From NCBI GenBank assembly GCA_002159065.1, contig LZRV01000028.1:1-40564 (forward strand): a stretch of 40,564 nt of DNA, written 5' to 3'. Positions 178 to 38,364 of this stretch are shown one piece after another. Both the position numbers and the translations under genes were made by a program. Below the pieces are notes generated by a model, which saw only the letters and a list, made by a program, of their open reading frames with translations, did no database searches and was not told the DNA's origin. Origin of the DNA: Paenibacillaceae bacterium ZCTH02-B3 (GTDB lineage Bacteria > Bacillota > Bacilli > Paenibacillales > Paenibacillaceae). The stretch's first letter is position 1; every line of letters starts with the position of its first letter.

Positions 178-1035
178 TCAGCCGTTCTTTCTGCGCCGGC
201 GCAGGATGCGAAGCGCTTCGGCGAAATCGTCCGGAAGCGGCGCCTCCACCTCCAGCTTCTCCCTGGTCCACGGATGGTTCCAGACGAGTTTCTCTCCATG
301 GAGCGCCTGCCTGGCGATCAGGTCGCGGTGGCCGCCGTACATCCCGTCGCCGGCCAGCGGATGGCCGATGTGGGACAGATGCACGCGAATCTGGTGGGTG
401 CGTCCCGTTTCCAGTTCCAGCCGGACCAGCGTATGGGTGTCAAAACGCTCCACCACAAAAAAGCGGGTGACCGCGGGGTCCCCCGTCTCGCTGACCCGGC
501 GCCGCGTGGGATGATGCCGGTCCTGGCCGATGGGAAGGTCGATCTTGCCCCTGTCCCGGGGGATGACGCCTTCCGCCAAAGCCAGGTAGATGCGGCCGAT
601 CTTTTTTTCCCGCATCATCCTGTCATAGTGCTGGTGGGCAAACTCGTTCTTGGCGTAGAGAATGGGGCCTGTCGTTTCCTTGTCCATCCGGTGGATGTGC
701 CGCACGCGCAAATCCTGCCCCGTCATCTCGTAATAAGCCGCCACCGCGTTGGCCAGGGTACGGCGCTGGCCTTTGACGCTGGGGTGCATCTCGATGCCGG
801 CCGGCTTGTTGACGACCAGCGTGAAATCGTCCTCGTACAAAATGTTCAGCTCCATCCAGTCGGACGGAAAATCCCGGCGCTCCCTCGGAAACAGCCGCAG
901 GCGAAGAAACGGCCCCTGAATATGTACGCCGCGGCTCTCCAGCAGCTTGTCCAGCAGCTTGGCCGGCAACGGCGTCCGCTTGAGCACCGCGTGCAACGGC
1001 ACGCCGACCAGGGAATCGGGCAGGCGGATTTCCAT
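178..1035 (-). CDS. RluA/RluD-family pseudouridine synthase
   Basis: The 285-residue product would isomerise specific uridines in RNA to pseudouridine. It holds the family signature HRMDKETTG at about residues 115-123, with D118 as the predicted catalytic aspartate. Further family elements are VVNKPAG near residue 75, the GRTHQIRVH block and HPLAGDGMYGG. The usual leucine of HRLD is methionine here. The start chosen is the ATG at 1035 (MEIRLPDS), preceded by GGAAAGGCGAG. An ATG at 1119 with GGGGTG upstream would add 28 basic residues. No clear N-terminal S4 domain is seen. The gene lies 225 nt behind tsaD on the same strand and ends at the intron-interrupted terminator. The exact RNA target cannot be told. 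Confidence 0.88.
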   Translation of the reverse strand: MEIRLPDSLVGVPLHAVLKRTPLPAKLLDKLLESRGVHIQGPFLRLRLFPRERRDFPSDWMELNILYEDDFTLVVNKPAGIEMHPSVKGQRRTLANAVAAYYEMTGQDLRVRHIHRMDKETTGPILYAKNEFAHQHYDRMMREKKIGRIYLALAEGVIPRDRGKIDLPIGQDRHHPTRRRVSETGDPAVTRFFVVERFDTHTLVRLELETGRTHQIRVHLSHIGHPLAGDGMYGGHRDLIARQALHGEKLVWNHPWTREKLEVEAPLPDDFAEALRILRRRRKNG

Positions 1036-1260
1036 CCACTCGCCTTTCCGCTTGCCCGGTTTCAACATGGATGCCGGCGGGAGGGACGCCTGCCGGCCGT
1101 TTCGTCTTTTTCCGCTCATCACGCAACACCCCAATGCCGCTTTGACGGACGCGGATCAGCGCTTCCGGAAGGACGACGGACGATTCCGCCGCATGCCGCA
1201 AGCCCGGCGACGCGGGACGCCTCCAACGCGCCGCAACGGCGGACCGGCCGCAGCCGGCGG

Positions 1261-2298
1261 TCATCCCGCGCGGACGGACCAATCCTCCAGCGGCATGAGC
1301 GGTTCCGCGTGCATGTCCAGCGGGGTGAACTGCCCGCGCCGCCACTTAAGGTCGGCGGCCGCCGCAATCATGGCCGCATTGTCCGTGCACAGATCCATCG
1401 GCGGGATGAGCAGCGGCAACCCGGCTTCCCCGCACAGCTCCCGCATCCGGCTCCGCAGGCCCCGGTTGGCGGCGACGCCGCCGCAAAGCAGCACCTGTTT
1501 GACGCCGAACACCCGCGCCGCGCGCATCGTTTTGCCGGTGAGCACGTCCACCACGGATTCCTGAAATCCCCGGGCCAAAGCGGCGAACATCGGGACTTCT
1601 CCCCGCATGACGGCGCGGTTCACTTCCGACAGCACCGCGGTCTTCAGGCCGCTGAAGCTGAAATCGAAGGAATCGGGCTCCAGCCAGGCGCGGGGCATTT
1701 CGATGCAGTCGTCCGCATCCGCCGCCAGCCGGTCGATGTGGGGGCCGCCGGGGTACGGGAAACGCAGGGCGCGCGCCACCTTGTCGTAGGCTTCCCCGAC
1801 GGCGTCGTCCCGCGTCTGTCCGATGATGCGGAACACGCCTTCCTCCGGCAGCAGCACCAGTTCGGTATGCCCGCCGGAGACCACCAGGGCCAGGGCGGGA
1901 TAGACGATTTCGCCGACCAGCCGGTTGGCGTAAATGTGGCCGGCGATGTGATGCGTGCCGATCAGCGGCACGTCAAGGGCCAGGGCCAAAGCCTTGGCCG
2001 CCGAGATGCCGACGAGCAGCGACCCGACCAGGCCGGGCCCCTGCGTCACGGCCACGGCGTCGATATCGCCCCGGCTCACGTCGGCGCTCCGGAGCGCTTC
2101 TTCCACAATGACCGTGATTTGTTCCACGTGCTTCCGCGAGGCGATCTCCGGGACGACCCCGCCGAAGCGGCGGTGAATGTCCGTCTGGCTGGCGACGATG
2201 TTGGAGAGGACTTCACGTCCGTCCCGCACGACGGCGGCGGCCGTCTCGTCGCAGCTTGTTTCGATGGCCAGAATGAGACTGGGTTTTCCGGATTGCAT
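1261..2298 (-). CDS. tsaD: tRNA N6-adenosine threonylcarbamoyltransferase TsaD
   Basis: TsaD transfers the threonylcarbamoyl group from TC-AMP to A37 of ANN-decoding tRNAs, working with TsaB and TsaE in the cytoplasm. The 345-residue product has normal length and the Kae1/Qri7 landmarks: [11 protein letters not shown] near the start, the metal-binding HHIAGH at 116-121, VVSGGHTEL, and a C-terminal LCTDNAAM with the last metal ligand. The ATG at 2298 follows GAGGAGAAGAAGG. It is the fifth gene of the thiL-tsaE-tsaB-rimI-tsaD operon and follows rimI by 33 nt. All t6A-specific partners except TsaC are present here. Confidence 0.97.
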
Positions 2299-2331
2299 GT
2301 ACCTTCTTCTCCTCGTTACGGGACGCCGGCC

Positions 2332-2859
2332 TTACCCTTCGCCGCTTGCGCCGGTCCCGTCATGCCCGGATGCCGGTTCCCGGGAAGGGTCCGACAGAGC
2401 CGCGGGTTCCGGCGGCAGGTCCGCCCACATGATCAGGGCATCTTCCATGTTGTCGGTGTAATAGCCGGGCCGCACGCCGCAAGAGACGAATCCGAGCTTG
2501 CGGTACAACCGCTGTGCGCGCGTGTTGGATACCCTTACTTCCAGGGTCATCCGCCGCGCGCCCAGCGAGCGCGCTTCTTCCATCAGCCGCCGCATCAGCC
2601 GCTCGCCCAGTCCCCGTCCGCGGAACGGCTCCCGCACGGCGATGTTCGTCACATGGGCTTCGTCCGCAATGACCCACATCCCGCAGTATCCGATGATCTG
2701 GCCGTCCTGTTCCAGCACGGAATAACGGGCAAACCGGTTGTGCGCAAGTTCGGTGCGGAAAGCTTCGGCGGACCAGGGCAGCGTAAACGATTCCTTCTCA
2801 ATCCGGGCGACTGCGGGGACGTCCTCCGGCGCCATCGCCCGAATCACCGGTTCGCTCAT
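2332..2859 (-). CDS. rimI: Ribosomal protein S18 alanine N-acetyltransferase RimI
   Basis: This is a 175-residue GNAT acetyltransferase that uses acetyl-CoA. The acetyl-CoA pyrophosphate loop is seen in [10 protein letters not shown], after the core strand AHVTNIAV, and the C-terminal half holds [19 protein letters not shown] and [17 protein letters not shown], characteristic of RimI. The ATG overlaps the tsaB stop (ATGA), which points to translational coupling. Placement between tsaB and tsaD is the standard Firmicutes order. The last 25 residues are proline- and glycine-rich and probably disordered. Confidence 0.94.
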
Positions 2860-3785
2860 GGGAGCTCCGCCTGCCTGGCCGCCAGCTTGATCTCCGCTTC
2901 GGACGGCTGCGTGTAGTTCGGCGCGAACGGATGGACGTCGTCCCGCTCGCCGCGGAAATGGCGCAGGGCCGCGAGCTTCCCGACGGCGGCGGCATCCATC
3001 TGTTGCGTTCCGCGGGACACGGGAACGGCGGCATGTGCGGCAAGTTCGGCGATGGCGCCGGCGAACGGCTCGATCTCGCCGACGAAGCGCACCTCCGGCG
3101 CGCCCGCTTCCTTCGCCGCGTCAAGCACCCCTTCCGCCCAGCTTCGAAACGGCCGGATGCCGTCGGCTTCGACGCGCCGCCATTCGTCCGGGCCCGGTCC
3201 TCCCTCGAACACGGCCGTATAGGCGTCTCCCCGGCGGGCGTTCATCACCGGGACAAACCAGATCCGTCCGCCCGCCGTGCGGTCCGGCCCGGCGGAACGC
3301 CGCGCCGCCTCTTCCCGCATCGCCTCTTCCCGCGCCGCGTACGCCAAAGCTTCCAGGCTGGAGACGCCGATCAGCGGTTTGTCCCAGGCCCAGGCCAGCG
3401 TCTTGGCCACGGTGACGCCGATGCGCACCCCCGTGTACGAACCGGGTCCCCGGCCGACGGCGATGGCGGCCAGCATCCTGGGCGTGACGCCGTGCCGGAC
3501 CATCAGTTCCCGGATCTCCGGCACCGTGCGCACCGAATGGTTCCGCTCCAACAGCAACTTGCGGGATTCCACCGTCACCGCTTCGTCCGCCTTCGGCTTC
3601 CCGTCCGACTCCGGATCCTGCTTCACGTCCGCCGCCTGTTTCACGTCCGCTTCCAGCTTCCCGTCCGCCTCCGGCTCCCCTTCCGTCGCCGGATCCGGTT
3701 TCCCGCGCAGCTCAAGCAGCGCGCACGCCAGCGTCGCGGTGGAGGTGTCCAGCGCCAGCAACATGCGCGGATTCAATAAATTCAT
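2856..3785 (-). CDS. tsaB: t6A biosynthesis protein TsaB, with low-complexity insert
   Basis: TsaB is the catalytically inactive TsaD paralogue that scaffolds the TsaB-TsaD-TsaE complex. The product of 309 residues has the N-terminal [15 protein letters not shown], the block [17 protein letters not shown] and the later [12 protein letters not shown]. The oddity is a hydrophilic insert at about residues 28-69, built from degenerate repeats of the type EADGK/EADVKQ. It separates the first beta strand from the conserved block that usually follows directly. The reading frame stays open and codon use is normal, so it looks translated. The ATG at 3785 overlaps the tsaE stop by 4 nt. Confidence 0.95.
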
Positions 3786-4291
3786 TCCCCTGATCCCTCC
3801 CGCGCCGGAGCCATCCCCGCATCGCGGCAAAGCCTGTCGTACCGCTCCCCGGCCGGTATGGCGGTGATCTTCCGCGAGACGGGGCCTGCCGCTTCAAAAT
3901 GGAGATGCAGCCGCTCCGGCGGAAGAATGGGCCCGATGCGCGACGCCCATTCCACCAGCGTCACCCCGTCTCCGAAAAAATAATCGTCCAGTCCGAGTTC
4001 CTCCGCTTCTTCGGAAGAAATCCGGTACATGTCCATATGGTAAAAAGGCAGCGTTCCGCCTTCATATTCCTTGATGATCGTAAACGTGGGACTGTTGACG
4101 ATTCCGGGGACGCCGAGCGCGCGGGCGAAGGCCTGGGCAAACCGCGTTTTGCCGGCGCCCAGTTCCCCGTCCAGGGCCAGTGTCATGCCGGGCCACGCCA
4201 ATCCCGCAAGCCGTGAGGCCAGCTCCACGGTGCCGGCTTCGCTGTCCGCCCGCCATATGTAGCGATTTTCCCCGTTCATGTTCCGATCCAT
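3782..4291 (-). CDS. tsaE: tRNA threonylcarbamoyladenosine biosynthesis ATPase TsaE
   Basis: TsaE is the small P-loop ATPase that drives cycles of the t6A complex. The Walker A motif GELGAGKT lies at residues 42-49, followed by [18 protein letters not shown] and LVEWASR, all typical of TsaE. The start is uncertain: ATGs at 4291 and 4279 both come after a GGGAAGG stretch, and an upstream ATG at 4363 lacks a ribosome site. With the 4291 start the protein has 169 residues, close to the family norm. It overlaps tsaB by 4 nt and follows thiL by about 96 nt. Confidence 0.94.
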
Positions 4292-4387
4292 GCCTTCCCA
4301 CCGCCATCCGGGTATCCGCCGCCAGTCTTTCCCCTTCGATGCAGCCCGCGATCCGCCCGGCATTTCCGGCGCACAGCGGAACGCCGC

Positions 4388-5416
4388 TTATCCACCCTCG
4401 CCGTCTTCGCCGCGAAAATGGTCGTAGCCGCGCTTCGCCACGGCAACCCGTTTCCCCGTCGCCGTTTCCAGCCAGACGCCCGGCGGACCGGACACCGTCT
4501 CGCCGACAAGAAAAAAAGGCAGCCCCGCTTCGCGGAAGGCTCGCTTCGCCTCGTCCTCGTCCGCCGCGTCGATGGTGCCGACCAGCGCGTAATCTTCTCC
4601 GCCGTACAGCATCCAATCCAGGGGTGACCGTCCGCACCGCCGGGCATAGGCGGCCAGCTCGCCGGCCACCGGCAGATCTTCCTCGCGCAGCACCATGCCG
4701 ACGCCGGACGCCTCGGCGATCTCCCACGCCTCGCACGCCAGTCCGTCGCTGATGTCGTTCAGCGCCCGTCCAAACCCCTGCTCCGACAGCAAAAGTCCCG
4801 CTCTCACGTGGGGCTCCGGCCGCCGGTGAGCCCGGACCAGCGAATCGGGAGGACGGGGCGCTTCCGGATGGAGCAGGCCGTACAAACCGGCCGCCGCCAG
4901 TCCGATCGGACCGGTAAGAAACACCTTTTGTCCCGGCGAGGCGCCGCTGCGCAATATCGCCCTCCCCGCGCGCACCTGGCCCGTCACCGTCACCGAAATG
5001 ACAAGATCGGCGCGCGATGCCGTGGTGTCTCCGCCGATGATCGCCACCCCGTGGCGGTCGGCACACGCATACAGCCCGTCATACAGCGCCTGCGTCCGCG
5101 CGGGCGTCCACGACGGCGGAACGCACACCGTCACCAGCGCATGCAGGGGCCGGCCTCCCATGGCGGCAATGTCGCTGATGCAGGAAGCCATCGCCTTATA
5201 CCCCACGTCGGCGTCTCCCATCGTCTCGGGTCGAAAATGGACGCCTTCCGCCATCGCGTCGACGGTGAGCAGCCATTCCGTCTCCCCGCCCGGCGAGGCC
5301 ACCACCGCCGTGTCGTCGCCGATGCCGGTAACGACGCCCCGCGAGGACAGGAAATCCGCACGCTGGCGTCCTTCCGTCCACGCGCGGATCAGGGCGAATT
5401 CGTCGGGATGCGCCAC
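4388..5416 (-). CDS. thiL: Thiamine-monophosphate kinase ThiL
   Basis: ThiL phosphorylates thiamine monophosphate to thiamine pyrophosphate, the last step of TPP synthesis. The 342-residue protein starts with a GTG at 5416, 8 nt after AAAGGAGC. Conserved elements are GIGDDTAVV, LLTVDAMAEGVHF, DISDIAAMGG in variant form (CISDIAAMGG), IIGGDTTAS, LNDISDGLA and YGGEDYAL, with the expected metal and ATP ligands. It opens the t6A operon and is read from a good sigma-A promoter upstream. Coupling of thiL to t6A genes is common in Firmicutes. Confidence 0.96.
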   Translation of the reverse strand: MAHPDEFALIRAWTEGRQRADFLSSRGVVTGIGDDTAVVASPGGETEWLLTVDAMAEGVHFRPETMGDADVGYKAMASCISDIAAMGGRPLHALVTVCVPPSWTPARTQALYDGLYACADRHGVAIIGGDTTASRADLVISVTVTGQVRAGRAILRSGASPGQKVFLTGPIGLAAAGLYGLLHPEAPRPPDSLVRAHRRPEPHVRAGLLLSEQGFGRALNDISDGLACEAWEIAEASGVGMVLREEDLPVAGELAAYARRCGRSPLDWMLYGGEDYALVGTIDAADEDEAKRAFREAGLPFFLVGETVSGPPGVWLETATGKRVAVAKRGYDHFRGEDGEGG

Positions 5417-5464
5417 GGCGCAAGCTCCTTTCCGCGACCGTGTCCAACTTCATTGTACAACGGT

Positions 5465-5493
5465 ATTATATCGGGGGCCGGCCAATCATGCAA
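5465..5493 (-). promoter_or_regulatory. Sigma-A promoter for the thiL-tsa operon
   Basis: On the minus strand TTGCAT is separated by exactly 17 nt from a perfect TATAAT (5465-5470). It lies about 50 nt upstream of the thiL start and just downstream of the terminator of the small-peptide genes. Confidence 0.8.
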
Positions 5494-5501
5494 AAACATG
5501 C

Positions 5502-5530
5502 AAAAGAAAAAAGCCCGTGTCCGGGCCTTC
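5502..5530 (-). terminator. Terminator of the GG-leader peptide genes
   Basis: The minus strand reads GCCCG-GACA-CGGGC followed by TTTTTTCTTTT, 14-40 nt after the stop of the second peptide gene. A nearly identical copy lies at 6123-6150 behind the degenerate third peptide copy. Confidence 0.8.
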
Positions 5531-5543
5531 GGGTTATTCACCA

Positions 5544-5741
5544 TTAACCGTTGGCAGCATATACTTCGTGCCCCACATTAACGTGTTGTGCATATTCAAG
5601 CGGTGAAACAATGGTGGTTTGGCAAGTTTTGCAATAATAGACCTGCAATCCGCGTCCGCCCGCAACCCGTTCCAGATCCGTTTCCTGCAGCCCGGAGGGT
5701 TCGGATTCGTTGCCGCCTGGCCATTTCGCTTCCTTGTCCAT
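5544..5741 (-). CDS. Double-glycine-leader peptide with C2H2-type core (copy B)
   Basis: The 65-residue product is not a family I can name. Residues 1-29 form an acidic leader that ends in DLERVAGG, like leaders of double-glycine peptides cut by C39 peptidases. The remaining 36 residues contain CKTC (37-40), twelve residues, H53, four residues and H58: Cys-X2-Cys-X12-His-X4-His, the spacing of a classical C2H2 zinc finger. The ATG at 5741 follows AAGGAGGAAATATCC. It is a tandem duplicate of the gene 31 nt upstream, including its ribosome site; the cores differ mostly at synonymous positions, so the protein is under selection. No modifying enzyme or peptidase-transporter is adjacent. It may be a secreted peptide, a RiPP precursor or a small zinc protein. 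Confidence 0.75.
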   Translation of the reverse strand: MDKEAKWPGGNESEPSGLQETDLERVAGGRGLQVYYCKTCQTTIVSPLEYAQHVNVGHEVYAANG

Positions 5742-5772
5742 GGATATTTCCTCCTTCGGATTTCGTGTACGA

Positions 5773-5967
5773 CTAGCCGTTCGCATATACTTCGTGACCC
5801 AAATTCACATGTTGTGCATATTCCGTGAGTGAAACAATTGTCGTCTGACAAGTTTTGCAATAATAGACCTGTAATCCGCGTCCACCCGCAACCCGTTCCA
5901 GATCCGTTTCCTGAGGCCGGGAAGATTCGGATTCGCCGCCGCCGGGAAATTTCGTTTCCTTGTCCAT
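5773..5967 (-). CDS. Double-glycine-leader peptide with C2H2-type core (copy A)
   Basis: The 64-residue product parallels copy B: an acidic leader with E12-S-E-S-S16, the DLERVAGG cleavage-type motif at 22-29, then a 35-residue core with C37, C40, H53 and H58 in C2H2 spacing and several aromatic residues (Y35, Y36, Y50, Y61). The ATG at 5967 follows AAGGAGGAGTATCC. Compared with copy B, QTTIV is spelled CAGACGACAATT instead of CAAACCACCATT and HVN is CATGTGAAT instead of CACGTTAAT, all silent changes. The core codons are AT-richer than the neighbouring genes, which may indicate transfer. The two genes are probably one transcript ending at 5502-5530. Confidence 0.75.
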   Translation of the reverse strand: MDKETKFPGGGESESSRPQETDLERVAGGRGLQVYYCKTCQTTIVSLTEYAQHVNLGHEVYANG

Positions 5968-6122
5968 GGATACTCCTCCTTCGGATTTCGTTTGTATGGC
6001 TCAAGCATAAAACAGCAAGATTAAGTGAAATTAAAGAAATGATAAAATTTACTTAAAATTTCACATGCCACGGCGTCACACAGGCAGGTTCGCGACGAAC
6101 CGGCGCGAGACTGAAGCTCGAT

Positions 6123-6211
6123 AAAAAGAAAACAGCCCGCGTCCGGGCCTTGCAAAAGTTCCCGCAACCACGAAGATTCGGATTCGCCGGCGCCGGGAAA
6201 TTTCGCTTCCT
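6123..6211 (-). pseudogene. Relic third copy of the GG-leader peptide gene
   Basis: Positions 6172-6211 match 5921-5960, within the leader of copy A, at 38 of 40 bases. The segment at 6123-6150 matches the terminator of copy B at about 26 of 28 bases. The start codon, the GG site and the whole C2H2 core are missing; only about 20 unrelated bases join leader and terminator. It is a remnant of an older tandem copy with its middle deleted. Confidence 0.7.
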
Positions 6212-6219
6212 CGAAATCA

Positions 6220-6249
6220 ACAAAACCGCCGGTCCCGACGGACCGGCGG
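6220..6249 (-). terminator. Terminator of the coiled-coil protein gene
   Basis: Ten-base perfect arms (6226-6235 and 6240-6249) with a 4-nt loop, followed on the minus strand by TTTTGTT. It lies 27 nt behind the stop of the gene ending at 6276. Confidence 0.85.
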
Positions 6250-6275
6250 CCGAAAATCGTCTTTGGTCCCGCCCG

Positions 6276-6785
6276 TTATTGGTAATACCGGGGAGCCTGC
6301 CCCTGGGTTTTTGCCGAGTAGGACGTGCCGAAGCCCGATCCGCCGGTCAGCTGCCGGGTCGACGGATTGAAGCTGAACGACGGATTGTTCGCCGTCACCG
6401 CCTGACTCGACGAGGCAAACTGCTGTCCAGCCGAGACATGGGAGGCCGGCGAACCGAAGGAAGCGGGCTGCTGGGTCCAGCCGGTCTGGGCGGCGTAGGA
6501 CGGCGACTGCGCCGGCTGGGCGAACGACGCCTGTTCCAGCTGCTTGCACATTTGCTGGATCTGGTTCAGCTGCTGGACGACGTTATGGTGGTTCTGCAGC
6601 GCCTGCTGGATGGCGTGCACCGCTTCCTGCTCCTTCTGGATCAGCTGCTGCAGCTCCGTGATGTTTTGCTGTTCTTTTTGCAGCATTTGCTGGTACACCT
6701 GGCTGGACCGGTTCGTCGTGTCGATCAGTTGCTGCGCGATCTGTTCGCATTGGCGGGCGATGCTCGAGACGTTCACTTGATGCAT
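6276..6785 (-). CDS. Glutamine-rich coiled-coil protein, possibly spore- or surface-associated
   Basis: The 169-residue product is not assigned to a named family. The first 90 residues form a long amphipathic coiled coil rich in glutamine (QQMLQKEQQNITELQQL). The last 80 residues are a low-complexity Ser/Ala/Gln/Gly tail with no charged clusters. There is no signal peptide or membrane segment. The ATG at 6785 (MHQVNVSS) follows GGGAGGATC at normal spacing; an upstream ATG at 6836 has no ribosome site. Composition resembles small coat or germination-associated proteins of spore formers, but this is inference only. Confidence 0.75.
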   Translation of the reverse strand: MHQVNVSSIARQCEQIAQQLIDTTNRSSQVYQQMLQKEQQNITELQQLIQKEQEAVHAIQQALQNHHNVVQQLNQIQQMCKQLEQASFAQPAQSPSYAAQTGWTQQPASFGSPASHVSAGQQFASSSQAVTANNPSFSFNPSTRQLTGGSGFGTSYSAKTQGQAPRYYQ

Positions 6786-6859
6786 GTCGGCTGATCCTCC
6801 CTGGATAAATTGATGTGGGGGCATCCATCCCGGCATAGTATGATCGGGCGCCCGGGGAT

Positions 6860-7060
6860 CTATGCCCGGCGTTCCGGCTTCCCAGGTCCGGACAAAGGCG
6901 CAAAATCGTCCGGCTCCGCCGTCGTGTCGCCGATGTATCCGTTGTGTTCCGTGACGCGTCCCCCGCCCAGCCCCTCGTTGACCATCCGGTCCACGTCGAG
7001 TTCGTATTTCCCTTTTCCTTCAAAAGGCAAATCGTCCGCGGAAGTTCCTTTATTGTCCAT
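6860..7060 (-). CDS. Small acidic hypothetical protein
   Basis: A 66-residue hydrophilic protein of unknown function with a conserved-looking centre (VDRMVNEGLGGGRVTEHNGY) and a proline-rich acidic tail. No cysteines, signal or membrane segment. The ATG at 7060 (MDNKGTS) is preferred because GAGGGG lies 9 nt upstream; an ATG at 7069 would overlap that site. It is transcribed away from ku and lies 74 nt upstream of the coiled-coil gene, possibly in the same transcript. Confidence 0.65.
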   Translation of the reverse strand: MDNKGTSADDLPFEGKGKYELDVDRMVNEGLGGGRVTEHNGYIGDTTAEPDDFAPLSGPGKPERRA

Positions 7061-7231
7061 ATCGCTCATCCCCTCGCGGCAAAAAATCATTCCGGCCGTC
7101 CGCGCGGACCGCCGTTACCCGCCAATATGCCCCGGGACGCGGAACTTCATGCGCTCCGGCATGCCGGACACGCGGGAGTAATAAAATAAGAAGGCAATCC
7201 GCATGCCAACAGGAAAAAGGAGCCGAAAGCC

Positions 7232-8098
7232 ATGCAAACGGTGTGGAAAGGGGCCATCAGTTTCGGTCTGGTGCACGTGCCGGTGAAGATGTTCGCGTCC
7301 ACCGAAGACAAGGATGTCCATTTCCGGCTGATCCACAAAGCCTGCGGGACTCCCGTTTCGTATGTCCGGACGTGTCCGCATTGCGAAACGCGGGTGGAAT
7401 GGGAGGACATCGCGCGGGGATACGAATACGAAAAAGGACGCTTCGTCCTGTTCGACGAGGAGGAACTGGAGGCCATCAAGCCGGAAAGCGCCCGCACCAT
7501 CCGGATCCTGGATTTTGTGTCCCTGGAGGAAATCGATCCGATCTACTTCCAGAAAACATACTACCTCTCCCCCGACCAGGCCGGGGAAGGGGCATACGCG
7601 CTGCTCCTTGAGGCGATGCGCCAGACCGGCCGCATCGGCATCGCCCGGGTGGCCATCCGCAGCAAAAGCAGCCTGGCGGCGATCCGGGCGTACGGGGACT
7701 GCATCTGCATGGAAACGATGTTCTATCCCGACGAAATCCGTTCCCTTGAGGCCGTGCCCAACCTGCCGAAGGAAACCAGGGTCGATCCGCGGGAGCTGGA
7801 TCTGGCGAAAATGCTCATCGAACAGCTGACCGCGCCCTTCGACGCGGCCAAATACACCGACGATTACCGCGCCGCCGTGCTGGACGCGATCGGGCGGAAA
7901 ATCGCCGGGCAAGGAGCGGATGTGGTCGCCGCGCCGGCCGCCGAGCGGACCAACGTCATCGACCTCATGGCCGCGCTTCAGGCCAGCCTTGAGGCGGTCA
8001 AAAACAAAGGCGAGGCGGGGGAAGCCGGCGCCGGCGCCGCGGACGGAACGTCCAGGCCCAAGCGCCGGACGGCCCGGGCGAAAGAGCCTGTGCGCTAG
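7232..8098 (+). CDS. ku: Non-homologous end-joining protein Ku
   Basis: Bacterial Ku forms a homodimeric ring on DNA ends and recruits LigD for double-strand break repair, important in dormant or germinating spores. The 288-residue product begins MQTVWKGAISFGLVHVPVK and has FRLIH, a CPHC pair, YEYEKGRFVLFDEEEL, KTYYLSPDQ and the Ku core through about residue 255, followed by an Ala/Gly then Arg/Lys-rich tail (KRRTARAK) of the kind that binds DNA or LigD. The start is fixed by AAAAAGGAGCC 8 nt upstream. No ligD is adjacent; the gene faces an ABC exporter operon with 10 nt between stops. Confidence 0.96.
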   Translation: MQTVWKGAISFGLVHVPVKMFASTEDKDVHFRLIHKACGTPVSYVRTCPHCETRVEWEDIARGYEYEKGRFVLFDEEELEAIKPESARTIRILDFVSLEEIDPIYFQKTYYLSPDQAGEGAYALLLEAMRQTGRIGIARVAIRSKSSLAAIRAYGDCICMETMFYPDEIRSLEAVPNLPKETRVDPRELDLAKMLIEQLTAPFDAAKYTDDYRAAVLDAIGRKIAGQGADVVAAPAAERTNVIDLMAALQASLEAVKNKGEAGEAGAGAADGTSRPKRRTARAKEPVR

Positions 8099-8108
8099 CG
8101 GCTTTCGC

Positions 8109-9974
8109 CTACCCCGTCTGCGCCCCGTACATCCGGCTGTAATAGCCGCCCCGCCGCAAGAGTTCTTCGTGTTTGCCCCGCTCCACCACGGTGCCGTCCT
8201 CGATGACCAGAATTTCGTCGGCTTCCCGGATCGTATTCAGCCGGTGGGCGATGACGAAGCTGGTCCGCCCTTTCATCAGGTTCAAGAGCGCCCGCTGGAT
8301 CTGCCGCTCGGTGCGGGTGTCGACGCTGCTGGTCGCTTCGTCGAGGATCAGGATGGACGGGCGGGTCAGCATCACCCGGGCGATGGCCAGAAGCTGCCGC
8401 TCGCCGTGACTCAGGTTGCCGCCGTTTTCGGTCAGCACCGTGTCGTACCCCTTGGGCAGCCGCCGGATGAACCGGTCCGCGCCGGCCAGCCGGGCGGCTT
8501 CCTCCATTTCCTCGTCCGTGGCGTCCGGCCGGCCGTATTTGATGTTTTCCCGGATGGTGCCGGCGAACAGGTACGTGTCCTGCAACACCACGCCGAAGCA
8601 GCGCCGCAGGCTGTCCCGCGTGTATTCCCGGATGTCGCGGCCGTCGATCAGGATGCGCCCTTCCGTTACATCGTAAAACCGCGTGAGGAGATTGACGATG
8701 GTGGTTTTCCCCGCGCCGGTCCTGCCCACCAGGGCCACCGTGGCGCCGGCGGGAACGGAGAACGACACGTCCCGCAGGGCCGGCACATCCGGACGGTAAG
8801 AAAACCGGACATTTTCGAACACCACGTGGCCGCGGGGGTGTTCCAGCGGGACGGCGCCCGGAGGGTCGGGGGGTTCCTCCCGTTCGTCCAGTACCTCGAA
8901 AGCCCGCTCCGCCCCGGCCACGCCGGACTGGATCATGTTGAACAGGTTGGCCATGTCGTTGAGCGGCCGGACGAACTGTCGGGAGTAGGTCATGAAAGCG
9001 GCGATGGCCCCCACGGTGATATCGCCCCGAATCGCCAGGACGCCTCCCGCGACGGCAACGACCGTGAAGCCCAGGTTGCCGATAACGTTCAGCATCGGCA
9101 TCAGGAAACCGGACAGGATCTGGGCTCTCAGGCCCGTGTCGTACAGATCGCCGTTGAGTTCGTCGAACTCGGCGACGGCGCGCTCCTCCCGGCCGTACGC
9201 CCGGACCGTGCGCAGGCCGGTGATGGTCTCCTCCACATGGGCGTTCAGCCGCCCGAGGGCGGCTTGCTGTTCCCTGAACAGGACGCGGGTACGCCGGGTA
9301 ATGCTCCGCACGAGCCCGTAGACCAGCGGCACCGTCACCAGGCTGGCCAGGGTGAGCAGCGGGCTGATGAACAGCATCATCGCCAGCGAACCGATGAGCG
9401 CGACGGCGCCGGACATGAACTGGATCGCGGGCTGCGAAAGGCTGGAGCTGACGTTGTCGATGTCGTTGGCCAGCCGGCTCATCAGCTCCCCGTGCTGCCG
9501 GGCGTCGAAATAGGCCAGCGGCAGTTTCTGCAGCTTCCCGAACAAGGCCGCCCGGAGCCGGCGTACCACCCGCTGCGAAATGGCGGCCGACAGCCGCCCC
9601 TGCGCCAGATGGAGCAGGGCGTCCGTCAGATAGGCGGCCGCAAGGACGACGATCATGATCCGCAGCAAATCGGCGTCGACGCCGGTTTCCGCTCCGATGG
9701 CATCCACCGCCACGCCGACCCCGTAAGGCGCCGCCAGCGCCAGGACGGAAGAGCCCATCACGGCAAGAAGCGCCAGGGCAAGCCGGCCGCGTTCCGGGCC
9801 AAGCCATCCCCACAGCCGCCTCAGGGTGCCGGTGAAGCTCTTCGGCTTGGCTGCCGGGCCGCCCCGGTGGTGGCCGCCGAAATGTCCCATCGGGCGGGGA
9901 GGCGCGGGCGGCGCCGGATCGGCGGCGCGGTCCTTGCGCTCTCCGGCGGCGGAGCGCATGCGCGGGTCAGACAT
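8109..9974 (-). CDS. Heterodimeric ABC exporter, catalytic subunit (TM288/YheH-like)
   Basis: A 621-residue half transporter: a Gly/Pro/His-rich N-terminal tail, six membrane helices from about residue 55 to 350, and a C-terminal ATPase with GRTGAGKTT, the Q-loop VVLQDTYLFAGT, Walker B ILILDEATSSVD with intact glutamate, and the H-loop VIAHRL. Its signature is LSHGE instead of LSGGQ, as expected for the subunit that lends its signature to the degenerate site of a heterodimer. The ATG at 9974 overlaps the upstream subunit gene by 8 nt and has AAAGGAGG upstream. Likely exports drugs, lipids or peptides; no C39 peptidase domain is present. Confidence 0.93.
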   Translation of the reverse strand: MSDPRMRSAAGERKDRAADPAPPAPPRPMGHFGGHHRGGPAAKPKSFTGTLRRLWGWLGPERGRLALALLAVMGSSVLALAAPYGVGVAVDAIGAETGVDADLLRIMIVVLAAAYLTDALLHLAQGRLSAAISQRVVRRLRAALFGKLQKLPLAYFDARQHGELMSRLANDIDNVSSSLSQPAIQFMSGAVALIGSLAMMLFISPLLTLASLVTVPLVYGLVRSITRRTRVLFREQQAALGRLNAHVEETITGLRTVRAYGREERAVAEFDELNGDLYDTGLRAQILSGFLMPMLNVIGNLGFTVVAVAGGVLAIRGDITVGAIAAFMTYSRQFVRPLNDMANLFNMIQSGVAGAERAFEVLDEREEPPDPPGAVPLEHPRGHVVFENVRFSYRPDVPALRDVSFSVPAGATVALVGRTGAGKTTIVNLLTRFYDVTEGRILIDGRDIREYTRDSLRRCFGVVLQDTYLFAGTIRENIKYGRPDATDEEMEEAARLAGADRFIRRLPKGYDTVLTENGGNLSHGERQLLAIARVMLTRPSILILDEATSSVDTRTERQIQRALLNLMKGRTSFVIAHRLNTIREADEILVIEDGTVVERGKHEELLRRGGYYSRMYGAQTG

Positions 9975-11796
9975 GGGACAGCGCCTCCTTTCCGAGCTGC
10001 GTTTCGCAGATTTCCCGGTAAAGGGGGCACGAACGCAGCAGGACCTCGTGGGCGCCGATGCCGGCGACCTCGCCATGGTCCAGCACGATGATTTTGTCGG
10101 CGTCCATCACGGTGGCAATCTTCTGGGCGATCAGGATGCGGGTGACGCCTTGCCCCAGGGATTTCAAGGCTTCCCGGACGCGGGATTCCGTCACCGCGTC
10201 CAGGGCGCTCATGGCGTCGTCGAGGACGAGAATCCGCGGCCGCCGCACCAAGGCCCGCGCCAGGGCGATGCGCTGCTTCTGGCCGCCCGACAGGTTGACG
10301 CCCCGCTGTCCGAGGCGGGTTTCGTATTTTTCCGGAAACGCCTCGATGAAATCCCGGGCCTGCGCAAGCCGCGCCGCCTCCGCAATCTCTTCCATGGTCG
10401 CGTCCTCTTTGCCCATCCGGATGTTGTCCGCGATGGTGCCGGTGAAGAGGGACGCGTCCTGGGTGACGCAGGCGATGCTTGCCCGCAGGATGCGGGGATC
10501 CATGGAGCGGACATCGGTGCCGTCCACCTTCACCGCCCCCGAGGTGACGTCGTACAGCCGAAGCAGGAGGCTGACCAGCGTGCTTTTGCCGGAGCCGGTG
10601 GGGCCGATGATGCCCACCGTTTCGCCGGGCAGGCACGTGAAGGTGACCTCCCGCAAGGCCGGAAGCCCGTCATTCCCCTCGTCCGAGGGATAGCGGAACG
10701 TCACCCGCTCGAAGTCGATGCGGCCGCCCGCGGCCGCCTGGGTCCCCGCTTCGGACTTTGCGGCGGTCCCGCCGGCGGGACCCGCCGCAACCGCCGGTCC
10801 GGCCGGCTCCGGCGCAACGGTTGGACCCGTCACACCCGCCAACATCTCCGCTCCGTCCCCCGCCGCAAACACCTCGCCGATGCGCAGCGCCGACGTGCGG
10901 GCGCGGACAAACATGGCGAACACCATGAAGATCATCATCAGCGAAAACAAGATCTGCGTCATGTAGCTGAGAAACGCCATGGTCTCGCCCACCTGGACGC
11001 GGCCGGTCCGCACGCCCCATCCGCCGATCCAAAGCACGGCGACCAGCCCCAGGTTCACCGTCAGCATGACGGCCGGATTGAAAAGCGCCATCGTCCGCAG
11101 GGCGCGGGTGGTGGCCTGCTGCAGCTCCGCATTGGCCCGGTCGAATTTTTCCGTTTCATACGAAAACCGGTTGAACGCCTTCACCACGCGGACGCCCGCC
11201 AGATACTCCCGCATGGCGCCGTTCACCCGGTCCATCGCCCGTTGCACCCGCTGGAAAAGGGGAAAACCGTATTTCATGTTCAGCGCAAGGAGCAAGAGGA
11301 CCACCGGAACGACCGCCGCCAGAACGGACGCCAGATAAAGGTTCAGGCTGGCGGCCATGATGAGGGCGCCGACGCACACGAGAGGCGCCTTCACGAAAAT
11401 GCGCATCAGGCCGTTGACGAAGTTCTGCACCTGCGTCACGTCGTTGGTGATGCGCGTCACCAGCGAAGCCCGGTCGAACCGGTCAAGGCTGGCCAGGGGC
11501 ATCGACTGGATGCGGCGGTACATGTCCGCGCGCAGCTCCTTGCCGAACCGCTGCGACACGCGGCTGGAGATCACGTTGCGGGCCGTGGCCGCCAAGGCGC
11601 CCGCGGCGGTCAGCAGCAGCATGATCCCGCCGAGTCCGAGCACGCGGCGGAGATCGAGATACGCCACGCCCTCGTCGACAATGCGCGCCAGCAGCGCCGG
11701 CTGCATGAGGTCCACCGCCGCTTCCAGGGTCAGGCACAGGATGGACGCCATGAACCACGCCCCGTGTCTCCGGACGTAAGGACGCAGAAAGCGCAA
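9967..11796 (-). CDS. Heterodimeric ABC exporter, degenerate-site subunit (TM287/YheI-like)
   Basis: A 609-residue half transporter starting from a TTG at 11796 with GAAGGGG just upstream. Six membrane helices precede an ATPase with GPTGSGKST and canonical LSGGQ. Two catalytic residues are replaced: Walker B reads ILVLDDAMSALD (Asp for the catalytic Glu), and the switch histidine is Gln in ILIAQKIAT. This is the pattern of TM287 and related asymmetric exporters. A roughly 35-residue Ala/Gly/Pro insert joins the membrane and ATPase domains, near 10720-10850. It is co-transcribed with its partner gene. Confidence 0.93.
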   Translation of the reverse strand: MRFLRPYVRRHGAWFMASILCLTLEAAVDLMQPALLARIVDEGVAYLDLRRVLGLGGIMLLLTAAGALAATARNVISSRVSQRFGKELRADMYRRIQSMPLASLDRFDRASLVTRITNDVTQVQNFVNGLMRIFVKAPLVCVGALIMAASLNLYLASVLAAVVPVVLLLLALNMKYGFPLFQRVQRAMDRVNGAMREYLAGVRVVKAFNRFSYETEKFDRANAELQQATTRALRTMALFNPAVMLTVNLGLVAVLWIGGWGVRTGRVQVGETMAFLSYMTQILFSLMMIFMVFAMFVRARTSALRIGEVFAAGDGAEMLAGVTGPTVAPEPAGPAVAAGPAGGTAAKSEAGTQAAAGGRIDFERVTFRYPSDEGNDGLPALREVTFTCLPGETVGIIGPTGSGKSTLVSLLLRLYDVTSGAVKVDGTDVRSMDPRILRASIACVTQDASLFTGTIADNIRMGKEDATMEEIAEAARLAQARDFIEAFPEKYETRLGQRGVNLSGGQKQRIALARALVRRPRILVLDDAMSALDAVTESRVREALKSLGQGVTRILIAQKIATVMDADKIIVLDHGEVAGIGAHEVLLRSCPLYREICETQLGKEALSHV

Positions 11797-12035
11797 GCCC
11801 CTTCACCCGCCTTTCTTCATTTAGGATGATAATCCTGCCCGGCCCGTTTGTCACCCCGACCCGGCTCCCGGTTCTTTCGTCCTGTTCGGACGGTCTTCCA
11901 ATCAGGTTATGGAACCGTTTAAATTTGCTGGATATATTTTCATTATTTTTTCTATACAACGAGGAAAAAAACACCTATTTTTGTGTTTAGCTGAATCTAC
12001 ATACGGATTAGCAATTTCTCAGGAGGATTGACAAC
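11797..12035. other. Divergent intergenic region upstream of the exporter and chemoreceptor
   Basis: About 240 nt between two divergent genes. It contains an imperfect palindrome AGGATGATAATCCT at 11823-11836, close to the exporter start, and an AT-rich stretch at 11920-11990. The chemoreceptor ribosome site TCAGGAGG is at the right end. I see no convincing sigma-A or sigma-D promoter. Confidence 0.5.
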
Positions 12036-13859
12036 ATGACAGACAACCTGGACGCGAAAAAAAGTCGGGGAACGGCCGAACTCAAAACCGGAATGAAACG
12101 TGTCAAACCGGTGTTGTCGCGGATGTGGAAATTCAAGGATATGCGGATTCTTTTCAAACTTTACAGCGGATTCGGCGCCATATTGATCATTACGCTTCTT
12201 GTCAGCCTGTTCAGCCTGTTCAGCATGAACCAGATCGGGGGCAAAACCAAGGAACTGTATGAAGAAAGACTGACCAACGTTTCCGACATCCTGACCCTGG
12301 CCGTCAAGTTCCAGGAGTTCAACTCGAACATCGGCAACATTTTGCTCAATACCGCGGGTGCCCAGGAGTTATCCACCGAAGATCTGAGACAGGCGCTGGA
12401 CGAAATCCGGGGTCTGCTTGACAAGTCGACCGGAAAAATGAAAGACATGGGCATACAAGAGTCGCAAATCACCACGTTCAACATCCTCTGGGACAACTAC
12501 TTGAAAGATTTTGAAAACTTCAGCTCCATGCTGGAGCGGGGCGACGAAAAGGTGGGCAACGTCACCGGCTTTGAAGCGGCCAAGACGATCTACACAGTTA
12601 ACATCAGCACCAAAACGGTGACGATGAACAACTATCTGTCCCAATGGGTGGACATCAACAAAGAGCTGGCCGAAGCAGCCTACCGGTCCGCCCTGAATCA
12701 GCAGACTTCGCAAATCATGCTGCAAATCATCCTGATCCTTGCGGCCGTCGCCTTGACGGTGCTGGTCGGCTGGGCGGTGGCCCGGTCCATCATCAACCCG
12801 CTGTCCCTGGTCGTGCAAGCGGCGGGCGAAATGTCCAAAGGAAGGCTGAACCAGTGCGTGGAGCTGATTCGCGGGGACGAACTCGGAACCCTCGCCTCTT
12901 CCTTCAATGAAATGGCGAAAAACATCCGCGAACTCATCCTCCAGGTCAAAAACGCCGGAGACAGGGTGTTCGACACGTCCCAAAATCTGTCCCTCATCTG
13001 CAGCCAGACGGCGGACGCCTCCCAGGAAGTGGCCCGGGAAATCACGAAAATCGCCGACAACGCGGAAACCCAGAAGCGGTCGGCGGAGGACAGCGCCCGG
13101 GCGATGAACGAAATGGCCCAGGGCGTCCAGCAGATCGCGGAAGCGTCCGAGGAAGTCACGAATCTGGCAATGGCGGCCAACCAGGAGGCCAGAGGGGGCA
13201 ACGAAGCGGTACAGAACGCCATTCGCCAGATCGAATCGGTCAAGGACACGGTGGAAACTTCGGCGTCCATCATCCGCAAGCTGGAGCAGCGCTCCGACGA
13301 AATCGGCAGCATCGTGGAAGTCATCACCGACATCGCGGCGCAAACGAACCTTCTGGCCCTCAACGCATCCATCGAAGCGGCCCGGGCCGGCGAGCACGGC
13401 CGCGGTTTCGCGGTGGTGGCGGGCGAAGTCCGGAAGCTTTCGCAGCGGTCCAGCGAGTACGCCCAGCAGATCAACAATCTGATCCAGGCCATCCGGAAGG
13501 ACACGGCACAGGCCGTGGAAGCGATGAACAGGGGCACGCGGGAAGTGCAGGAAGGCGTGGCCGTGGCGCTGCAGGCGGGAGAAGCGTTTGAACGAATTTC
13601 CCGCTCCATCGACAACGTGTTTGCGAAGATCGAAAACGTGACGTCGGTGGTGGAAGAGCTGTCCGCCGGCACGGAGGAAGTGGCGGCCTCCGCCGACGAG
13701 AGCGCCCGCATCGCCAAGGAAATGTCCGGCAACACGCAAAGCGTGGTGGCCGTCACCGAAGAGCAGCTGGCCGCCGTGTCGGAAATCTCCGAATCCGCGG
13801 AAGGTTTGCGGCGCATGGCGCAAGACCTTCAGGAAACCATCGCGCGGTTCGAGGTGTGA
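12036..13859 (+). CDS. Methyl-accepting chemotaxis protein
   Basis: The 607-residue membrane receptor signals to CheA through CheW. A 42-residue basic cytoplasmic N-terminus is followed by TM1 (about 43-63), an extracellular four-helix-bundle-type sensor domain (64-225), TM2 (227-250), a HAMP domain ([17 protein letters not shown] onwards) and the long signalling coiled coil. The hairpin tip at about 430-470 includes [20 protein letters not shown] and [14 protein letters not shown]. There is no C-terminal pentapeptide tether. The start is set by CAGGAGG upstream. No other chemotaxis gene is near; the ligand cannot be inferred. Confidence 0.96.
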
Positions 13860-13872
13860 CGGCGAAGCGAGA

Positions 13873-13925
13873 CGCCGCCGGGGAATTTCGTCGTGTGGCG
13901 AAATCCCCCGGCGGCTTTTGCTTTT
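13873..13925 (+). terminator. Terminator of the chemoreceptor gene
   Basis: A long inverted repeat, GCCGCCGGGGAATTTCG pairing with CGAAATCCCCCGGCGGC with one bulged base, followed by TTTTGCTTTTT, starts 14 nt after the receptor stop. Confidence 0.88.
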
Positions 13926-14056
13926 TGAAGGAACATCCCGCCGATTCCCGAAGACTTTTGCCGGTGCGAAAACGGAACGAAAAAGGTATACTGGAATGGG
14001 TGTTCCAGGACAGCGCTTTCAACCAGTGTCGGCAAATACATGGCGGAGGGACAGCC

Positions 14057-15172
14057 TTGATCGGATTCGTCGTCAACCCGGTTTCCGGCAACGGCAAGGG
14101 CATCAGGACATGGAAAAAAATCGAACGGACGCTGCGAAGGAAGAAAATCCCGTATCTGATGCACATCACCGGAAAGCCCGGGGACGCTTCGGTTTTCGCC
14201 CGAGAGCTCGCCGAACGCGGCGACTGCGCCGCCGTCGTGGCCGTGGGCGGCGACGGAACGGTCAGCGAGACGGCCGCCGGTCTGCTGGCGGCGGGGGCGC
14301 GGAAGCCCCTCGGACACATTCCCGCCGGCTCCGGCAACGATTTCTCCCGCACAATGGGCATTCCGGCCGGCAAACCGGAAGCGCTGGCCTCCGCGTTGAC
14401 CGCCGCAATGCCCGGCTCGACCGGCGCACCGGATAGCCCTCCCGCCGAGTTGTCCGCCGCGCGTTTCGGTTCGCCCGGCATGCCGTCCGGTTCAACCGAC
14501 GGTCCGTCCGGCAACACGTCCGCCGCGGCGAACGCTCCGCGGCGCATCGACGTCTTTGCCCTGCGGCGGGATGCCGGGCCGGACAGAGCTGGCGGCACGT
14601 CCGGCCCGTCGGGCGACGGTCCGGGCATCGCCGTCTGCTCGGTCGGGGCCGGATTTGACGGCAAGGTGGCGTTCGAGACCAACCGGGCCGCGCACAAGAG
14701 ATGGCTGAACCGTCTCAGGCTGGGCGCCCTCGCCTATCCGCTGTCCATGCTGGCAACCCTTGTCACTTACAAGCCTTGTCCGGTCCGGGTCATCGTCGAC
14801 GGACAGGCGTTTGATTACGACGCCGTCTGGCTGGTGGCCGTCGCCAATGTCGCCACGTATGGCGGCGGCATGCGGATTTGTCCCCGCGCGCGGCCGGACG
14901 ACGGGCTGGCCGACGTATGCGTCGTGCATCGGATCGGCAGACTCACGTTTCTGCGCTATTTTCCCCGCGTCTACTCCGGCCGCCACATTGAACTTCCGGG
15001 CGTGAGCCTTCACCGGGGCCGGCGGGTGGAAATCCGCGCGGACCGGCCCCTCTTCGTCCATGCCGACGGGGAATACGCCGGCGAAACGCCGCTGGAAATC
15101 CGGGTCATCGCGGACGCCTTGCCGGTCCTCGCCGCCGCCCCGGGTCCGAAAAAGCCGGTTCACGGCCCGTGA
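14057..15172 (+). CDS. Diacylglycerol/lipid kinase family protein (DgkB/YegS-like)
   Basis: A 371-residue cytoplasmic kinase with the DAGK catalytic fold: FVVNPVSGNGKG at the N-terminus, VAVGGDGTVSETAAG near residue 65 and IPAGSGNDFSRT after it, then GAGFDGKVAFETN and DGEYAGETPLEIRV at the end. It would phosphorylate diacylglycerol or a related lipid. The start chosen is TTG at 14057, with CGGAGGG 7 nt upstream; an open frame further upstream runs through the terminator and is not used. Between the two lobes lies an insert of about 60 residues rich in Pro, Ser, Gly and Ala (near 14405-14620), absent from typical members. Confidence 0.9.
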   Translation: MIGFVVNPVSGNGKGIRTWKKIERTLRRKKIPYLMHITGKPGDASVFARELAERGDCAAVVAVGGDGTVSETAAGLLAAGARKPLGHIPAGSGNDFSRTMGIPAGKPEALASALTAAMPGSTGAPDSPPAELSAARFGSPGMPSGSTDGPSGNTSAAANAPRRIDVFALRRDAGPDRAGGTSGPSGDGPGIAVCSVGAGFDGKVAFETNRAAHKRWLNRLRLGALAYPLSMLATLVTYKPCPVRVIVDGQAFDYDAVWLVAVANVATYGGGMRICPRARPDDGLADVCVVHRIGRLTFLRYFPRVYSGRHIELPGVSLHRGRRVEIRADRPLFVHADGEYAGETPLEIRVIADALPVLAAAPGPKKPVHGP

Positions 15173-37686: not shown

Positions 37687-37725
37687 AACCCTGATTTTGA
37701 CAGTCGGGAAGACATGGAGGAAAAC

Positions 37726-38364
37726 ATGATCCGTCTTGCGCCAAAAACCCCCGGAGTCACCCTCGCGGCGGGACGCCGCCATACCGTCGCCGTCCGATCC
37801 GACGGGACGGTGGCGGCCGCGGGCGACAACCGGTGCGGCCAGTGCGATGTGGGCGATTGGAGGGGCATCGTCGCGGTGGCGGCAGGCAACGTCCACATGG
37901 CAACCAACACGGGCCATTCCCATACCGTCGGCCTTAAAGTCGACGGGACGGCGGTCGCCGCAGGCTGGAACCGGCACGGCCAGTGCGACGTGTACGGCTG
38001 GCGCGGTCTCGTGGCCGTCGCGGCGGGCGCGAACTCGCACGGCCAATGCGACGTCGGCGCCTGGCGGAATCTCGTGGCGGTCGCGGCGGGCAGCCTGCAC
38101 ACCGTCGGTCTGAAAGCCGACGGAACGGAGGTGGCGGCGGGGGACAACACTTTCGGCCAATGCGACGTGGAACATTGGCGCGATCTGGTGGCCGTCGCGG
38201 CGGGCTGCGCCCATACCGTCGGCCTGAAAGCCGACGGCACGGTAGTCGCGACGGGCGACAACTCCTTCGGCCAATGCAAGGTGATCGCCTGGCGCGGCAT
38301 CCGGCTTCCGAATGATCCGTTTCCGGGGGTTGAGGCGCGGGAAGGCCGGCAGCGGGCAGGCTGA
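37726..38364 (+). CDS. RCC1-repeat protein
   Basis: A 212-residue cytoplasmic protein made almost wholly of RCC1-type beta-propeller repeats with the consensus HTVGLKADGTVVAAGDN-x-FGQCDV followed by WRxLVAVAAG. There are about four and a half units: the second carries an extra ten or so residues and the third keeps only its last half (ANSHGQCDVGAWRNLVAVAAG). A closed propeller needs about seven blades, so the protein may oligomerise or be a reduced form. The ATG at 37726 is chosen because GGAGG lies 5 nt upstream; the ATG at 37714 is less well placed. Function unknown. Confidence 0.82.
   Translation: MIRLAPKTPGVTLAAGRRHTVAVRSDGTVAAAGDNRCGQCDVGDWRGIVAVAAGNVHMATNTGHSHTVGLKVDGTAVAAGWNRHGQCDVYGWRGLVAVAAGANSHGQCDVGAWRNLVAVAAGSLHTVGLKADGTEVAAGDNTFGQCDVEHWRDLVAVAAGCAHTVGLKADGTVVATGDNSFGQCKVIAWRGIRLPNDPFPGVEAREGRQRAG

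Follow-up and report, generated by a model that had tools for sequence, protein, structure and literature searches.

The DNA analysed here (the window) is 40,564 nucleotides long and comprises the whole of contig C28 of the Paenibacillaceae bacterium ZCTH02-B3 assembly (3.12 Mb, 98% complete). Two small genes lie in tandem on its minus strand, between a glutamine-rich open reading frame (ORF) at 6276-6836 and a thiL-like ORF at 4388-5416, and these encode MDKETKFPGGGESESSRPQETDLERVAGG / RGLQVYYCKTCQTTIVSLTEYAQHVNLGHEVYANG and a copy that is 86% identical. An original prediction, made from the sequence without database searches, described both products as having a leader that ends in DLERVAGG and a core with the spacing C-x2-C-x12-H-x4-H, and we can confirm this arrangement. 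The locus contains the following features:

6134-6212, minus strand: apparent remnant of a third copy, consisting of a leader fragment (6159-6212) and a terminator-like hairpin (6134-6149)
6004-6044, minus strand: shared promoter element, 11-bp direct repeats CTTTAA-N5-CTTAAT and then a -10-like TATGCT
5973-5979, minus strand: Shine-Dalgarno-like GGAGGAG of peptide 1, by sequence reading
5773-5967, minus strand: peptide 1 ORF, 64 amino acids
5881-5967, minus strand: peptide 1 leader, residues 1-29, ending in ETDLERVAGG, with Gly-Gly at -2/-1, Val at -4, Leu at -7, Asp at -8, and Pro replacing Leu at -12
5773-5880, minus strand: peptide 1 core, 35 amino acids, C37-x2-C40-x12-H53-x4-H58, plus stop codon
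5750-5754, minus strand: Shine-Dalgarno-like GGAGG of peptide 2, duplicated together with the gene
5544-5741, minus strand: peptide 2 ORF, 65 amino acids
5655-5741, minus strand: peptide 2 leader, residues 1-29, with Leu at -12, Asp at -8, Leu at -7, Val at -4 and Gly-Gly
5544-5654, minus strand: peptide 2 core, 36 amino acids, ligands spaced as in peptide 1, plus stop codon
5509-5530, minus strand: intrinsic terminator-like hairpin, 3' of the peptide 2 gene

The ribosome-binding region is part of the unit that has been duplicated in this pair. Further upstream, the leader fragment (match E = 0.89, 67% over 18 amino acids) and its hairpin look like a dead third copy of the peptide gene. The glutamine-rich ORF (186 amino acids, minus strand) and a 76-amino acid ORF (6860-7090, minus strand), both upstream of the peptides, adjoin a Ku-like gene, and neither gave a match in a Pfam search. 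Elsewhere in the window, positions 37714-38364 hold a 216-amino acid ORF composed of RCC1-like repeats (HTVGLKxDGTVVAxGDNxFGQCxV).

Comparison of the two peptide genes bears out the original view that the differences between their cores are largely silent and that the protein is selected. Core codons 30-62 carry ten silent and three replacement changes (Nei-Gojobori dN 0.056, dS 0.79; dN/dS about 0.07). Leader residues 19-29 (QETDLERVAGG) show zero replacements, and the N-terminal 18 residues of the leader are freer to vary than these. Since silent and replacement changes are distributed unevenly along the peptide, selection acts on the end of the leader and on the core. Across its six frames the window contains two instances of the C2H2 spacing, where 60 third-order Markov resamplings lead one to expect 0.13; as at least one of those 60 also gave two occurrences, the pattern by itself is not overwhelming. 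It is selection and homology that raise these peptides above chance.

Members and distribution of the family

Profiles of the family, made at first with four peptides and later with ten, identified seven members in the ZCTH02-B3 genome: the two in the window, one on contig C107, two on C77 and a pair on C31 that has an mdh-like gene on one side and an HD-domain gene on the other. The C107 member (locus L040, 9636-9870, minus strand) lacks an in-frame start codon close to its ribosome-binding site, the ATG that would be expected there being out of frame with the remainder. The gene therefore looks frameshifted, and is either a dead copy or the result of faulty assembly.

Beyond this genome there are at least nine relatives, all of them in Paenibacillales; they come from Paenibacillus xylanexedens, P. 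algorifonticola, P. oenotherae, P. plantiphilus, other Paenibacillus strains and a second family of the order. The E-values of profile matches to paralogues and relatives reach as low as 1e-34, bearing in mind that any member included in a profile is bound to match it. The first match to the C31 genes, however, came from a single sequence (E = 3e-4), and some relatives were detected before they entered the profile. Single-sequence searches with peptide 1 (396 genomes of the family, phages, plasmids and a collection of genome contigs) gave no match outside its own genome, and the relatives elsewhere were reached by profiles only. A thin, class-wide sample of genomes contained zero members beyond Paenibacillales.

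Several candidates were set aside in the course of these searches. A match in genome G449 (E = 5e-4) lies within a 1093-amino acid frame and was excluded from the family, while several family-level matches with E-values of 0.01-0.1 were dropped on account of stop codons or long frames. The possibility of a prophage or plasmid gene was rejected, given that the phage and plasmid collections gave no match. The author of the original prediction knew of no described family that combined a double-glycine leader with a zinc-finger core, and our literature search, with subscription journals outside its scope, likewise found no description that joined the two. Double-glycine-leader zinc-finger peptides form a real and, as far as is apparent, hitherto undescribed family.

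Leader, exporter and shared promoter

The original prediction would have been refuted by homologues without the Gly-Gly motif or the Cys/His ligands, and all 16 representative homologues retain both. Substrates of C39 (PCAT/AMS) exporters are recognised by GG, GA or GS at -2/-1 together with hydrophobic residues at -4, -7 and -12, and the family follows this pattern. Leu at -7 and Val or Ile at -4 accompany Gly-Gly in each of the 16; Leu at -12 is present in 15, the sole exception being peptide 1 of the window, which has Pro. C39 domains bind Val-4, Leu-7 and Leu-12, and in the C39 protease LahT the residues at -4, -7 and -12 occupy a groove, changes to them blocking cleavage (PMC6363468). The ComA consensus is L(-12)xxxE(-8)L(-7), and most substitutions of Leu-12 blocked a characterised C39 protease (PMC6363468); the Pro at -12 argues against C39 processing of peptide 1. 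Haft et al. described these leader residues as common to class II bacteriocins and to NHLP and Nif11 precursors, and noted that the latter two can be encoded at a distance from their export genes (PMC2887384).

With no processing enzyme nearby, the original prediction supposed that the task would fall to a C39 peptidase encoded elsewhere. The assembly contains one such domain (C77:72441-72824, E = 1.9e-40), which belongs to an NHLM_micro_ABC1 protein (1130 bits to TIGR03796, cut-off 853). Its neighbours are the partner proteins ABC2 and HlyD (TIGR03797 and TIGR03794), Nif11 precursors and a LanM, and the same region encodes an SBP_bac_3-like protein and a dicarboxylate symporter. Two zinc-ribbon-like members of the family lie on C77 about 16 kb from this exporter; the window genes are distant from any exporter.

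Across the order, presence of the family tracks the exporter: all ten peptide-positive genomes are TIGR03796-positive, against 21 of 395 sampled genomes overall. Fisher's test gives p = 1.6e-14 (2.9e-13 without this genome, 1.7e-13 if G449 is counted as a member), values that overstate the evidence because related genomes are not independent. The co-occurrence agrees across members of two families and several genera. When the neighbours of the homologues were inspected, as had been proposed, the peptide gene of the relatives proved to lie inside the NHLM cluster itself, between the acyl-chain genes and a solute-binding protein (SBP) gene. The order is fixed, running from the exporter through an NHLP peptide, dctA, GNAT, ketosynthase, ACP and two reductase-type genes to the zinc peptide, SBP and a 7TMR-DISM hybrid kinase. 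Peptide-free NHLM clusters in the sample are also without SBP and dctA, save on one truncated contig. At locus L115 (contig C107 of genome G014), an NHLM cluster has SBP and dctA, no zinc peptide was detected and the contig ends in the exporter; a peptide gene may lie beyond this end.

Two further observations concern related clusters. The Paenibacillus NHLM clusters of loci L079-L086 (about 500-14700) combine NHLP leader peptides, GNAT and acyl-chain genes (ketosynthase, ACP, FabG-like, and a PPTase in L086), which suggests that they make selidamide-like lipopeptides with the acyl supply encoded in the cluster. Locus L134 (9620-11023; G000:C52, about 103.6-105.0 kb) is a tandem array of four Nif11-like double-glycine precursors with similar leaders. 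Neither an NHLM exporter nor a LanM was recognised in the 20 kb examined around this array, and its first precursor weakly matches the shared promoter.

Proteins with C2H2 or NinF-like folds usually reside inside the cell, and the window genes lie away from exporters, so that the products might be intracellular zinc-finger microproteins, such as nucleic-acid or protein adaptors, from which the leader is never cleaved. We think this unlikely, as the full C39 recognition pattern is kept while the N-terminus varies, and because strict co-occurrence and linkage with a C39 exporter are at odds with a cytoplasmic role. The conservation of the leader residues and the linkage of the family to NHLM also lead us to reject the earlier suggestion that the Gly-Gly might be incidental.

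A common arrangement, in which A/T-rich repeats with a spacing of 11 bp (CTTTAA-N5-CTTAAT) are followed in many cases by TGGCATG and then by a TAnnAT-like -10, precedes the window pair, each of the two C31 genes, the copy on C107 and one of the C77 genes. We aligned five sites by eye to make a promoter profile. In leave-one-out tests the sites of the window, C31a and C107 outscored every non-training segment among 351,098, a comparison biased by the fact that loci were chosen because they contain these genes. The profile also selects the region before the NHLM hlyD (equalled by 0 of 500 column-shuffled profiles) and that before one C77 Nif11 gene (p = 0.006); several other Nif11 genes scored poorly. 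A strict version of the pattern, allowing three mismatches, has three matches in the genome, all before family members, and its reversed control has none. Repeats spaced by 11 bp are typical of OmpR/PhoB-family regulators. An OmpR-type regulator (PF00072 and PF00486) stands beside the C77 peptide and adjoins hlyD in seven of the seven relatives checked, and the repeats fit, short of proof, a linked regulator of this type.

The core and its four ligands

Every one of the 16 representatives has four Cys/His ligands arranged as two close pairs. The window, C31 and C107 copies take the form CC..HH, and the C77 copies and all relatives the form CC..CC; the C2H2 form is thus confined to this genome, relatives elsewhere having C4 only. 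Such interchange of Cys and His pairs at one position usually marks a zinc site. The sequence evidence supports the original proposal of a metal-bound core, but C2H2 is only one core form among others that are C4 and zinc-ribbon-like, and 'four-ligand zinc site' is the better description of the family.

Comparisons with known folds give graded results. The L086 core matches the NinF model PF05810 at 42 bits, above its cut-off of 27.5, and the L084 core falls narrowly short at 25 bits; the window peptides do not reach this cut-off. The ligand spacing of these peptides falls within the C2H2 pattern C-x2-C-x12-H-x3-5-H, and they resemble Pfam zf-met weakly (E = 0.007-0.019), all their matches to Pfam zinc-finger models being under curated cut-offs. 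AlphaFold2 predicted a beta-beta-alpha core for peptide 1 (strands at 33-37 and 42-44, helix at 47-56; pLDDT about 67-78 in this block); the Cys lie at the hairpin, and His53 is within the helix. The mean pLDDT of the whole model was 64 with the two sequences alone, and a mixed C2H2/C4 alignment gave a poorer result (54). Foldseek returned C2H2 fingers as best matches, but with a best E-value of 0.57 its backing for this fold is weak, and a sequence search of solved structures found weak zinc-finger matches only.

The two Cys of the core are accompanied by several Ser/Thr, and a LanM (TIGR03897, 671 bits) is encoded within the NHLM cluster of this genome. These genes might therefore specify lanthipeptide precursors, in which the C77 LanM would dehydrate Ser/Thr and form thioether rings with both Cys before export, the His being present by chance. 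In marine Synechococcus, a single LanM is reported to act on many different Nif11 precursors (PMC10783134). Yet a LanM beside the peptide was not found in the L079-L086 or G518/G519 loci, the two occurring together only in this genome, and the absence of an adjacent LanM from the relatives examined makes such modification unlikely as a general rule. In-place replacement of Cys pairs by His pairs suits metal ligands and not thioethers, and the zinc-ribbon match of the L086 core also counts against this origin, which we regard as improbable. Exported Cys-rich peptides frequently carry disulfides, but a metal-free peptide with redox or structural disulfides formed outside the cell is very unlikely here, since the CCHH members have two Cys only, three residues apart, together with conserved His, and a CxxC followed 9-12 residues on by a His or Cys pair matches zinc-ribbon models.

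Proposed pathway and relation to known systems

We consider it likely that these genes encode precursors of secreted zinc-binding mini-proteins, which are processed and exported in trans by the NHLM system. The C39 domain of the C77 exporter would recognise the leader of approximately 29 residues and cleave it off behind Gly-Gly in the course of export; the liberated core of 35-36 residues would then fold round a single metal ion, probably Zn2+, with two Cys and two His as ligands. This one exporter would serve all the precursors, scattered as their genes are. The shared promoter, to which the OmpR-family regulator encoded in the NHLM cluster probably binds, would activate the peptides along with the exporter and one or more Nif11 precursors.

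Once exported, the peptide would most likely act as a signal or an antimicrobial. The exporter class favours an antimicrobial; we lean slightly towards a signal because the peptide gene of the relatives directly precedes those for the solute-binding protein and the 7TMR-DISM kinase. It is conceivable, though we advance it tentatively, that the peptides are autoinducers with a single zinc site, released by NHLM, sensed via the linked SBP and kinase and induced via the OmpR-type regulator.

Bacteriocins, pheromones and RiPP precursors are known to carry double-glycine leaders, and most of their cores either lack a fold inside the cell or undergo chemical modification. If our proposal is correct, a ready zinc finger or ribbon can be the cargo, with metal coordination stabilising the secreted peptide without modifying enzymes, and genome mining guided by nearby enzymes will overlook precursors that are dispersed in this way. 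It also raises the question of whether the core traverses the exporter unfolded and acquires zinc outside.

Each part of this system has analogues elsewhere. The L086 core scores above the cut-off of the NinF zinc-ribbon model, but the window peptides are CCHH and not CCCC, and NinF itself, a protein of phages, has no leader for export. With class II bacteriocins and ComC-type pheromones (TIGR01847, PF10439, PF03047) the family shares a short leader with L-12, L-7, V/I-4 and Gly-Gly; it differs in its finger- or ribbon-type core and produces sub-threshold matches only, the class II bacteriocin models TIGR01847, TIGR03949 and PF10439 giving none above the curated cut-off (best E = 0.008-0.05). 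The Paenibacillus clusters are similar to those of selidamide type, in which an NHLP precursor is paired with a GNAT maturase, in that they hold NHLP peptides, GNAT and acyl-chain genes, but the zinc peptide is an additional gene. The zinc peptides share with NHLP and Nif11 precursors (TIGR03793, TIGR03798; PMC2887384) the 13-residue stretch before Gly-Gly, the NHLM exporter and genes that may lie far from it. Unlike them, they have a short leader (about 29 amino acids) and no nitrile-hydratase or Nif11 domain; the long-leader models TIGR03798 and TIGR03793 gave nothing above cut-off, one of ten members reaching TIGR03798 at E = 0.15. Where NHLP and Nif11 precursors carry a hypervariable stretch, the zinc peptides carry a conserved four-ligand domain.
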